A stretch of DNA of 64,000 nucleotides, taken from Armatimonadota bacterium. GTDB taxonomy: Bacteria; Armatimonadota; Fimbriimonadia; Fimbriimonadales; Fimbriimonadaceae. Positions 50,864 to 54,315 of this stretch are shown in pieces. A program made the translations under genes and the position numbers. How positions within the stretch are numbered: the stretch's first letter is position 1; each line of letters opens with the position of its first letter. Below the pieces are notes generated by a model. That model was not told where the DNA came from, made no database searches, and saw only the letters and a list, made by a program, of their open reading frames with translations. The stretch spans positions 248,001 through 312,000 of the forward strand of contig JAEURN010000006.1 in NCBI GenBank assembly GCA_016789105.1, read 5' to 3'.

Positions 50864-51358
50864 TTACTCACGGCCGATCGACCGGCGGACATGGCAACCA
50901 TGGCCCCCGTTTTTTGAAAAATACTCCTGGTGGTATTCCTCGGCCGGAAAAAAGGTTGATGCGTCTTCGATCGATGTGACGATTGGGCGGGGGAAGAACT
51001 GTTGCGCCCAGCTTTTGCTGGCTTCGGCCGCCGCTCTTTGTTCTGGCGAATGGACAAAGATCGCCGATCGGTATTGCGTCCCGATATCCGGCCCCTGGCG
51101 GTTTAGCGTGGTCGGGTCGTGGATCTCCCAAAATATGTGCAAGATCTCGGAATAGGAAATGACATCCGGGTCGAAAGCTATCTGCACGGCTTCGGCATGG
51201 CCGGTCAATCCGCTGCAGACTTCGCGGTACGTGGGGTTTTGGCTATGCCCGCCGATATATCCGCTCACCGCCGATTTGACTCCCGGCACCTTGCGGAAAA
51301 GGTCTTCCACCCCCCAAAAACACCCTCCTGCGACCGTTGCTAATTCGAGTTCAGCCAT
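50864..51358 (-). CDS. msrA: Peptide methionine sulfoxide reductase MsrA
   Basis: 164 residues. Catalytic Cys is C13 in AGGCFWGVEDLF; GYIGGHSQNPTYREVCSGLTGHAEAVQI and FWEIHDPTTLNRQGPDIGTQYRSAIF are the remaining MsrA signatures. It reduces the S-diastereomer of methionine sulfoxide with thioredoxin. It is likely cytoplasmic and monocistronic, divergent from arsR with 95 bases between starts. Confidence 0.96.
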   Translation of the reverse strand: MAELELATVAGGCFWGVEDLFRKVPGVKSAVSGYIGGHSQNPTYREVCSGLTGHAEAVQIAFDPDVISYSEILHIFWEIHDPTTLNRQGPDIGTQYRSAIFVHSPEQRAAAEASKSWAQQFFPRPIVTSIEDASTFFPAEEYHQEYFSKNGGHGCHVRRSIGRE

Positions 51359-51440
51359 AGCATCACTTAAAGGTCAAGTTTGGCGGAATTGTTCGCGGGG
51401 CCTAGTCAAGACCGTTTGCGCCACTAACCGCCAGGCCGGG

Positions 51441-51446
51441 TATCGT
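51441..51446 (+). promoter_or_regulatory. -10-like TATCGT before arsR
   Basis: TATCGT ends seven bases before ATG 51454. Fits TANNNT and the leaderless spacing. No inverted repeat was recognised here as an ArsR operator. Confidence 0.35.
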
Positions 51447-51453
51447 CGTTTCG

Positions 51454-51807
51454 ATGGAATTCGAAATGAAAGTGGCGGCGTTCCGTGCCCTGGGCGACCC
51501 GACGCGATTAGGGATCATCGATTTGCTGGCCACCCAGTGCGACTCGGAGGGGGCGATAGGCGAAGATGGGTCGGTCGTTGGCCTCTCGGCTGGGGAAGTC
51601 TGTTGCCAACTGACGGGTGCCGACAAGATCACATCCACCATTTCTCACCACCTGCACGAATTGGAGTCCGCCGGTCTGGTGGAGTTAACCAAGCAGGGGC
51701 GCCGGACAGTCTGCCGGCTCAACGGCCAGGCGCTCGGCGAGATATCCGGATACCTTGGAGGGTTGGCGGCGGCAACCGGGCGCGGATGCCTAGGCGGCGC
51801 AATATGA
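51454..51807 (+). CDS. arsR: ArsR/SmtB-family repressor
   Basis: 117 residues with a winged helix-turn-helix: FRALGDPTRLGIIDLLA at the start, recognition helix ITSTISHHLHELESAGLVEL (59-78), then wing GRRTVCRLN. A vicinal pair C50-C51 in GEVCCQL and C112 near the end could bind As(III), though the classical CVC motif is not present. It is expected to repress its own operon until arsenite or antimonite binds. It is followed by arsC (4-base overlap) and an aquaglyceroporin gene. Confidence 0.85.
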   Translation: MEFEMKVAAFRALGDPTRLGIIDLLATQCDSEGAIGEDGSVVGLSAGEVCCQLTGADKITSTISHHLHELESAGLVELTKQGRRTVCRLNGQALGEISGYLGGLAAATGRGCLGGAI

Positions 51808-52211
51808 GAATACTGTTCGTTTGCGTGCACAACGCCGGACGGTCGCAAATGGCCGAAGCGCTCTTCAACCACGAAGCCAAGGAACGCGGACTTGAGGCGC
51901 GTGCCGAATCCGCCGGCACCGAAGGCGGAAAGTCCCTGAACCCGGTCGCCGCGGAGGCCATGGCCGAAATTGGGATTCCCATGAACCATCAATCCCCCAA
52001 ACTCTTGACCCAGGCCATGGCCGATCGCGCCGACCGGATCATCACCATGGGGTGCGGGGTTGATGCCGAATCGTGTCCGGCCAAGTTCCTGGTGACCGAG
52101 GATTGGGGGTTGGATGACCCGGCAGGGCAGGGGATCGAATCTGTGCGGCCGATCCGGGATGAAATCCGGAAGCGGATCAATCAACTCTTGGATGGTCTGA
52201 GCCGTGGTTAA
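51804..52211 (+). CDS. arsC: Thioredoxin-coupled arsenate reductase ArsC
   Basis: 135 residues from ATG 51804, overlapping the arsR stop as ATGA. Low-molecular-weight tyrosine-phosphatase fold with the CX5R loop C7VHNAGR13S. The second and third redox Cys, C84 and C91 in TMGCGVDAESCP, are seven apart, as Cys82 and Cys89 are in the S. aureus enzyme. It reduces arsenate to arsenite with electrons from thioredoxin. The downstream channel can release the arsenite. Confidence 0.92.
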   Translation: MRILFVCVHNAGRSQMAEALFNHEAKERGLEARAESAGTEGGKSLNPVAAEAMAEIGIPMNHQSPKLLTQAMADRADRIITMGCGVDAESCPAKFLVTEDWGLDDPAGQGIESVRPIRDEIRKRINQLLDGLSRG

Positions 52212-52884
52212 GCGCTACGTGGCCGAGTTCGTCGGCAGCTTCATGATCGTCGCCGCACCCATTTGGGGTGCCTTTGCCGGACTAGGATTGTCCGAGATGG
52301 CCTGGATCAGCGGCTTGGCGGTGATGGCGATGATTTACGTTTTCGGGCCGGTGTCGGCAGCCCACTTTAACCCGGCGGTGACCTTGGGGTTCGCGGTCGC
52401 CAAGCGGTTTCCTTGGAAGCACGTGGCCCCTTACGTGCTTTGCCAAATTGCGGGTGGGATAGCGGCGGCGGCCCTTGGAAGCTTGGCCCTCAAACCTGGA
52501 CTGGGGGTTCATGTCCCAGCCACGCAATTTATTGGGAGAAACATTGCCACCGAGTTCCTGGTGACCTTTGCGCTGATGGCCGTCATCATGGCGGTGGCCA
52601 CGGATCGTCGGGTCAGCGGCGCAATCCCAGGGGTCGCGATCGGGTTGACCGTCGTCCTGGGGGTGCTGGTTGGCGGATCGGTTACCGGAGGGTCAATGAA
52701 CCCGGCCCGTTCCCTTGGGCCGGCATTGATGGCCGGGGGTGAAGCCCTAAACAACGTGTGGCTCTATCTGAGCATCCCGCCACTTGGGGCCGTTGCCGCC
52801 GCAGTGCTCTTTGAATATCTGCGGCTGGAGCCCGAACACGCCAAAGGGGCACCCGATGGAATCGCCGCCGAGGTGACCGATTAG
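52204..52884 (+). CDS. MIP-family channel (AqpS-like, arsenite exit)
   Basis: 226 residues; GTG start overlapping the arsC stop by eight bases. Six membrane segments and two NPA boxes: HFNPAVTLG (N56) and SMNPARSLGPAL (N166). Aquaglyceroporins conduct uncharged As(OH)3. In Sinorhizobium meliloti AqpS takes the place of ArsB in the ars operon, and the same arrangement is inferred here, since no ArsB or ACR3 gene follows. Its TAG overlaps the stop of the convergent GT4 gene. Confidence 0.88.
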   Translation: MVKRYVAEFVGSFMIVAAPIWGAFAGLGLSEMAWISGLAVMAMIYVFGPVSAAHFNPAVTLGFAVAKRFPWKHVAPYVLCQIAGGIAAAALGSLALKPGLGVHVPATQFIGRNIATEFLVTFALMAVIMAVATDRRVSGAIPGVAIGLTVVLGVLVGGSVTGGSMNPARSLGPALMAGGEALNNVWLYLSIPPLGAVAAAVLFEYLRLEPEHAKGAPDGIAAEVTD

Positions 52885-54287
52885 TCCACCGCCGAAGGTT
52901 CTTCGACCTCGTCCTCGGGTTTCTTGCCCGGGTGGAGGGCCTCTTCGGCGTGGATTTTGACGTCGGGCAGGGATATGTTGGGCATCGGCCGGGCAATGTA
53001 GGCACCGGATTTTGCTTTTTCCTTGACTCGGAGGAGTTCGGCCCGCTCCCGCGCACCGTCGCTGATCGGCCAGAGTGTCCGGTCGGCCCAATAGCTGCCC
53101 AGGAACTCCTGCCAAACGCGTTCATAAACGGCGATGGTCTGGTCGGCAATGCGGCCCCAATCGAAATCCGATTCTAACCGGACGTCGGCCGCCTCCTTGT
53201 ACCGTCCGGTTTTTTCCGGATGGCGCAAGGCTTCCAAAATCGCCCAGGCTAGCGAACCCGGGTCTCCGGCATAACACGTCAACCCGGTCTGTTCGTGCAA
53301 CACGACTTCTTTGAGCCCGCCGGCATCACTGGCCACAACCGCCGCCCCGGCCGCCATGCCTTCCAACGCCACAATCCCGAACGGTTCATAGAGGCTAGGG
53401 AAGACGGCGACATCCGCGCTCCGGAAAAGTTGGTGCAAGGAACGGTTGGCCATGAACCCGGTGAATAAAACTTTGTCTTGCAGGCCGTACCACCGGACGA
53501 ATTTTTCCAAAGAGGCGCGGTTGCCCCCGCCGACGATCACGAACTTAGTGTCGGGCTCGTTGGCTAAAACGACGGAAGCGGCGTTCAGCAAAACATGGAT
53601 GCCCTTTTCCCGCACGAATCGGCCCACATACATCACAATTTTCTCTTGGGGCAGGGCGAGTTTTGCCCGCCACGCCGTGCGTTCCTCTTCTGTCCATTCG
53701 AACCGGAACTTGGCGGGGTCGACGCCGTTGTAAATCACATCGACTTTATCAAAGGGGCAGTTGAAATACCGGTTGACTTCGTTCTTCATGAACTCGCTGC
53801 ACACGATGACCCGCCAGGCCTCGTAGCTCAGCCAATATTCCGATTCGTGGATATACCGCTGGAGGTCGTTATGGATGCCGTTGTTGCGGCCTTGTTCGGT
53901 GGCGTGGATGGTTGCCACCATTGGCAGTTGGTATTCGTATTTGAGCGACCGCGCTGAATCAAGGCTCAGCCAGTCGTGGGCGTGAAAAATCGTGGGCTTG
54001 CCTTCTTCTCGCCATTCCTCCAGAAGTTGCCGGCACCGGAGGTCGGTCGCCTTGTTGAGGAGTTGGATCTCGTGAATGAAGTTGTCGGGTTCTCGCTCTA
54101 GATGGACGCGGTGGATCTGGACCCCGCTCGGCTCGGTTTCCTCGTCGGGAGCAAGGGGGGTGCTCTTGGTGACGACATGCACTTCCACCCCGCGGGCGGC
54201 GAGTTTTTGGGAGAGTTCGTAAACGTGCGGGCTAATTCCCCCGACGATCCGGGGAGGGTATTCCCAACTTAGCATCACAACCCGCAT
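52881..54287 (-). CDS. Glycosyltransferase family 4 (glycogen-synthase-like)
   Basis: 468 residues from ATG 54287 (MRVVMLSWEYPP); a GTG at 54314 is possible. The opening SWEYPPRIVGGISPHVYELSQKLA, the acceptor segment HAHDWLSLDSA and the C-terminal nucleotide-sugar motif EPFGIVALEGMAAGAAVVAS are the pattern of GT4/GT5 enzymes such as Pep2/MalP-type starch synthase relatives. A C-terminal extension of about 60 residues is acidic and Pro-rich. It probably uses a nucleotide-activated hexose in the cytoplasm; acceptor unknown. Confidence 0.88.
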   Translation of the reverse strand: MRVVMLSWEYPPRIVGGISPHVYELSQKLAARGVEVHVVTKSTPLAPDEETEPSGVQIHRVHLEREPDNFIHEIQLLNKATDLRCRQLLEEWREEGKPTIFHAHDWLSLDSARSLKYEYQLPMVATIHATEQGRNNGIHNDLQRYIHESEYWLSYEAWRVIVCSEFMKNEVNRYFNCPFDKVDVIYNGVDPAKFRFEWTEEERTAWRAKLALPQEKIVMYVGRFVREKGIHVLLNAASVVLANEPDTKFVIVGGGNRASLEKFVRWYGLQDKVLFTGFMANRSLHQLFRSADVAVFPSLYEPFGIVALEGMAAGAAVVASDAGGLKEVVLHEQTGLTCYAGDPGSLAWAILEALRHPEKTGRYKEAADVRLESDFDWGRIADQTIAVYERVWQEFLGSYWADRTLWPISDGARERAELLRVKEKAKSGAYIARPMPNISLPDVKIHAEEALHPGKKPEDEVEEPSAVD

Positions 54288-54315
54288 GGGTTCTATTTTG
54301 CCCGAGAAAAGCACG

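Follow-up and report, generated by a model that had tools for sequence, protein, structure and literature searches.

Bacterial AqpN channels reportedly sit in ars operons, and the title of the 2020 work on them by Pommerrenig and colleagues names bacterial arsenic detoxification. AqpN (Pommerrenig et al., 2020) is cited in PMC11316224, PMC8355241, and PMC10716587. The ars operon of Sinorhizobium meliloti that carries AqpS (Yang et al., 2005) is recounted in PMC6205960 and PMC4435449, and the former also mentions a Salinispora protein in which AqpS and ArsC are fused. The survey outlined in PMC4435449 counted 18 MIPs among the 717 transporters of 685 ars operons and lists none of the 18 with a second transporter. 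By these accounts, MIPs in ars operons are already published, and the design is known but uncommon.

The locus described here lies in the window, the whole 64,000-nucleotide stretch of an Armatimonadota genome that was analyzed, and consists of arsR, arsC, and the gene for a MIP channel, all on the + strand (Table 1). The first two genes share 4 bp (ATGA) and the last two share 8 bp, in agreement with the earlier note, which had described arsR, arsC, and a two-NPA channel as overlapping; the same note had claimed that no ArsB or ACR3 follows, and the next gene is indeed a convergent glycosyltransferase gene. No other transporter gene was found in the operon, so that, as in the AqpS-type arrangement, arsR and arsC stand beside a MIP gene in an operon without ArsB or ACR3. 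In both operons, as far as the AqpS operon is portrayed in the papers above, a MIP takes the place of ArsB/ACR3 beside an arsenate reductase and the proposed function is the exit of internally made arsenite; the window differs in that its set is arsR-arsC-channel with a NIP-like channel, and the likeness to AqpS is one of published description. In the Salinispora protein, as it is mentioned, channel and arsenate reductase likewise form one functional unit, but they are fused there and encoded by separate overlapping genes here. The HTH_20/HTH_5, LMWPc, and MIP domains each scored over the Pfam cut-off, whereas NCBIfam named broad families alone, with ArsR, ArsC, and the channel all scoring under the curated cut-offs. 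No sigma-70 consensus was found upstream of arsR (51359-51453); two short inverted repeats are present upstream of the gene and may be due to chance. We infer that the three genes are co-transcribed and that ArsR controls the operon.

Table 1. Coordinates of the cassette, its flanks, and the codons of the channel filter in the window.
Feature	Position	Strand	Basis and details
arsR, putative ArsR/SmtB-type repressor	51454..51807	+	Pfam HTH_20/HTH_5; 117 aa; Cys29, 50, 51, 87, 112
arsC, thioredoxin-type arsenate reductase	51804..52211	+	LMWPc; 135 aa; Cys7/84/91
NIP-like MIP channel, two NPA motifs	52204..52884	+	Pfam MIP; 226 aa; GTG start
Intergenic stretch, expected promoter and ArsR site	51359..51453	no strand	position only
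msrA, left flank of inserted cassette	50864..51358	-	TIGR00401 above cut-off
Glycosyltransferase gene, right flank of inserted cassette	52881..54314	-	orthologues 80-87% identical, five sister species
Filter residue S36 codon (H2 position)	52309..52311	+	alignment
Filter residue V154 codon (H5 position)	52663..52665	+	alignment
Filter residue G163 codon (LE1 position)	52690..52692	+	alignment
Filter residue R169 codon (LE2 position)	52708..52710	+	alignment

ArsC contains exactly three cysteines, located where the earlier note had placed them, and all three are kept in 13/13 ArsC proteins encoded beside related channels. Among solved structures, arsenate reductases match it best (3t38, E 3.6e-21), and it combines a P-loop cysteine with a redox cysteine pair, as is characteristic of the thioredoxin-type enzymes with the LMW-phosphatase fold. 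ArsR is divergent; its top solved match is the ArsR protein 6j0e (E 2.6e-4), and a PADLOC scan of it was uninformative. Cys50, Cys51, Cys87, and Cys112 of ArsR are conserved in 20/20 ArsR proteins beside related channels, which suggests that these residues may provide thiol ligands for As(III).

The channel had been called an aquaglyceroporin, which the comparisons place on the wrong branch. Its best solved match is rice NIP2;1/Lsi1 (phmmer 2.8e-35), ahead of AqpZ2 (3.4e-25) and AqpM (5.4e-25), whereas GlpF matches at 3.7e-12 and over residues 7-91, the first half, only. An Asp after the second NPAR (NPARD) marks GlpF. The window channel reads NPARS at its second NPA motif, and a GlpF-type aquaglyceroporin was rejected on this basis together with the partial length of the GlpF similarity. 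As read from the alignment, the aromatic/arginine filter is an unusual one, S36-V154-G163-R169, and the same columns are G-S-G-R in NIP2;1 and F-H-T-R in AqpZ2. In a tree of 98 of the 154 collected channels (98-row tree), built without AqpN references, the channel falls with NIP2;1 and NIP-like bacterial channels, apart from AqpZ2 and AqpM, although this split is weak (68/88). An AlphaFold2 model from a 27-row alignment (mean pLDDT 92.1) has the aquaporin fold, and its structural Z scores against AqpZ2 (33.5), NIP2;1 (33.1), and AqpZ (32.9) leave NIP, AqpZ, and AqpM tied or nearly so; the fold therefore does not settle the subfamily. From sequence and filter residues, the channel, which resembles NIP more than AqpZ, AqpM, or GlpF, is classed as NIP-like (AqpN-type), and bacterial AqpN and the window channel are both NIP-like bacterial channels. 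The aligned S-V-G-R filter resembles those of NIP-II channels, with Ser at H2 falling outside the pattern T/A-A/I/V-G/A-R as it is given for NIP-II in PMC7576499. Like the plant NIP-II/NIP-III channels NIP5;1, NIP6;1, and NIP2;1, the window channel has a small residue at H2 and a Gly in the LE1 position, but it is bacterial and located within an ars cassette.

A fold common to all aquaporins, with Z scores that hardly separate AqpZ-type channels from NIP, would equally suit an ordinary water or glycerol channel that came to lie beside ars genes by chance. We regard this as very improbable, given that the filter differs from the F-H-T-R of AqpZ and that the genome encodes a second MIP (L100, G000:C10:186790-187413, on another contig) with the filter H-I-A-R, no ars reference genes within 3 kb, and a clade in the 98-row tree that it shares with sister-species MIPs. 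Synteny far above that of a control set argues against chance as well. The 22 most similar channels in 85 genomes of the family were taken by channel similarity alone; arsR is located within 3 kb of 20 and a reductase within 3 kb of 18. Among 49 less similar family MIP loci, which were the ones fetched of 65 lower-scoring rows and include L101-L103, chosen for a nearby ACR3, arsR was near 1, ArsC near 2, and ACR3 near 3. The linkage thus differs from the control at Fisher p values of 2e-14 for arsR (20/22 versus 1/49) and 4e-11 for the reductase (18/22 versus 2/49), the neighbor counts being based on one reference protein per gene, by which divergent arsR genes may be missed. The arrangement of arsR, reductase, and channel is beyond chance. 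Combinations of ACR3 with MIPs of a different kind were also seen: arsR-ACR3-MIP on one strand at L103 (G069), convergent ACR3 and MIP genes at L101 and L102 (G058 and G057), and MIP-ACR3-ArsC at L161 (Microcoleus).

The filters of the 22 family channels are S-V-G-R in 18, S-I-G-R in 1, F-G-N-R in 2, and F-G-C-R in 1. Across the phylum (Armatimonadota), 42/291 genomes contain a channel match at E <= 1e-40, 20 of them within the family, and the 22 loci outside the family comprise 15 with S-V-G-R, 4 with F-A-A-R, 1 with F-A-G-R, 1 with F-G-C-R, and 1 that is cut. Channel L282 of a genome in this phylum is identical to L112, which comes from a record named Armatimonadetes. The phylum thus has 34 loci with an S-V/I-G-R filter, and within 3 kb arsR was found at 33 (family 18/19, outside 15/15) and an arsenate reductase at 30 (family 15/19, outside 15/15); L078 (at a contig end), L079, L086, and L088 have no reductase within that distance. 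The reductase is ArsC at 22 loci, including L272, where the ArsC neighbor is only 31% identical, and a Car1-like metallophosphoesterase at 8, one of which was tested against Pfam and matched PF12850, a calcineurin-like phosphoesterase family. Car1 of Rufibacter tibetensis is described in PMC12124457 as a metallophosphoesterase that acts as an arsenate reductase and for which Cys74 and Cys76 are essential. A CxC motif beginning at residue 74 or 75 is present in 14/14 Car1-like proteins encoded beside channels (L074-L077, L090, L111, L136, L142, L159, L172, L268, L269, L274, and L277, of which L111 and L277 are perhaps one gene in two collections). Records with Car1-like metallophosphoesterases beside ars channels come from Armatimonadota, Bacteroidota, and Chloroflexota. 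Since two unrelated reductases occur beside one channel, their shared product, arsenite, is indicated as the cargo, and we consider this the best indirect sign of what the channel carries.

Several solutes pass wide NIP filters, according to the account in PMC7576499, and the channel could instead serve mainly for a methylated arsenical or some other metalloid acid (methylarsonite, borate, silicate). Genes for arsM lie within 3 kb at 10/22 family loci and at 9/22 loci outside the family (one of these lies on the opposite strand and has 30% identity), and L079 consists of arsR, arsM, and a channel with no reductase. The partner gene of the channel in the window, however, is arsC, and an ArsM query matched nothing in its own genome at E <= 1e-30; we judge such a cargo improbable as the main one and favor inorganic arsenite.

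The genome that contains the window (2.75 Mb, 11 contigs, 99.96% complete) was searched for five carrier families, and no matches to SBF (PF01758), acr3 (TIGR00832), ArsB (PF02040), ArsP (PF03773), or CitMHS (PF03600) were obtained; of 14 control genomes, 6 to 12 were positive in each of these searches. The earlier note had proposed a look for arsB/acr3 elsewhere in the genome as the check on its reading, and no pump of the five searched families turned up. Arsenic carriers also occur in the MFS, for example ArsK and ArsJ. The search spanned those five families, and a pump of another family, the MFS for example, might export the arsenite, leaving the channel a minor part or a different solute; ACR3 (G020, G021) or ArsB (G022) is also present in 3/22 family genomes with the channel. 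We think this unlikely, as the window's operon holds no other transporter gene and the 18/18 ars-operon MIPs tallied in PMC4435449 are each given there as the only transporter of their operon. An anticorrelation between channel and ACR3 across the family was dropped as support, with ACR3 not significantly rarer alongside the channel (2/22 versus 13/63, p 0.33). With the reductase tied to the channel and no pump of five families in the genome, the locus is best read as one from which As(OH)3 diffuses through the channel; the proposal of the earlier note, that arsenate is reduced and arsenite leaves by diffusion through the channel, is in this way supported indirectly.

Comparison with sister species shows that the cassette is an insertion between msrA and the glycosyltransferase gene. 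The gene order in G078-G081, four of these species, is PulE, msrA, glycosyltransferase gene, and the gap between the latter two is 41-57 bp, versus 1522 bp with the cassette in the window; in G082 the glycosyltransferase gene has different neighbors, and in G083 and G084 no full-length counterpart of it was found. None of the seven sister genomes contains a channel at E <= 1e-40 or an ACR3 match. The G+C content of the cassette is 62.1%, versus 58.4% for the window, and ranks among the highest 0.5% of stretches of the same length. A second tree was calculated from 66 chosen rows with the filter residues masked and the cut channel L275 excluded (66-row tree), its bootstrap being not quite settled. 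In this tree, the window's channel belongs to a well-supported set of 18 family channels (100/92), the smallest such set that includes it. These observations fit a gain of the cassette from another lineage, probably one within the family.

Several other loci bear a resemblance to parts of this region. At L086 (6046-9145, in G045, which belongs to another genus), an arsR-channel pair touches the counterpart of the glycosyltransferase gene, an orthologue with 77% identity, at its opposite end, and the L086 and window channels pair weakly in the 66-row tree (86/89), by chance or through a common past. The sister species G082 encodes a similar ArsC (L104, G082:C23:186411-186797; 65-66%), near which neither ArsR nor ACR3 nor the channel gave a match, and its genome has no ACR3/ArsB match. 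Four plasmid matches were opened: one is an ars cluster (Rubrobacter), two are not, and one came without a gene table. The cluster, L233 on Rubrobacter tropicus plasmid NZ_CP045120.1, comprises a permease, arsM, arsR, a metallophosphoesterase, two arsC genes, a MIP channel, and a Tn3 transposase, and is plausibly a mobile form of the cassette.

The 66-row tree, in which the filter residues were masked, places 35 S-V/I-G-R channels on one branch (support 100/100), so that the S-V/I-G-R filter corresponds to one change of state. The 35th of these channels belongs to a cyanobacterial MAG recorded as Aliterella, through transfer or a binning error. NIP2;1 is located outside the S-V/I-G-R clade; in the 98-row tree it joins channels of Chloroflexota (98/86), with a long branch. 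Because of this position, the plant and Armatimonadota filters look to have been opened separately. Among named channels of all phyla, in the best 80 of at least 583 confirmed, 23/80 loci lie within 3 kb of an ars reference gene, and their commonest filter is F-A-A-R (14 of the 23), as against the S-V-G-R of the window channel, which is found in 2. An open filter is therefore not required for the ars link, the ars-linked channels of other phyla being mostly F-A-A-R in that set. The three F-G-x-R family channels likewise adjoin ars genes, and a reductase is present at 2/6 uncut non-S-V-G-R phylum loci outside the family. The occurrence of ars-linked F-A-A-R and F-G-x-R channels indicates that the association with arsenic predates the opening of the filter. 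We tentatively propose that one lineage of bacterial ars channels may have opened an F-A-A-R or F-G-x-R filter to S-V-G-R, in parallel with plant NIP-II/III, and kept its tie to arsenite production while the reductase was swapped between ArsC and Car1-like enzymes. A single origin of the open filter combined with reductase exchange was not found in a literature search beyond whose reach lay the main 2020 AqpN paper, and a bacterial arsenic channel with a filter opened as in plant NIP-II is possibly new.

In the proposed mechanism, ArsR would hold the operon repressed until arsenite binds its cysteines. Arsenate would enter with phosphate and be reduced by ArsC to As(OH)3, and this neutral species, made inside, would exit through the NIP-like channel down its own gradient, a passive exit for which neither energy nor a pump would be needed. 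The cost would be that the same channel admits arsenite when arsenite is the outside form. Passive exit would lower the inside concentration only to the outside level, and the cassette would thus protect against arsenate and do harm under arsenite. Plant NIP-II channels, as reported in PMC2442057, carry As(III) both ways, and in yeast they sensitize cells to As(III) and give better growth on arsenate. For the window channel, permeability to arsenite, the direction of flow, and a benefit to the cell are presumed. Taken together, we consider it likely that the cassette is a self-contained system for arsenate detoxification in which arsenite is released through the channel.

The locus would then be a well-placed case of arsenic detoxification by leak rather than by pump, with the empty site available in sister species, and the leak design would be spread over the phylum Armatimonadota. 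Because its natural channels have the same filter and occur with either of two exchangeable reductases, the clade would allow the contribution of the filter to metalloid transport to be tested outside plants. If the proposed history is true, the S-V/I-G-R clade would descend from a channel for arsenite release and would itself be a natural experiment on what filter opening adds.
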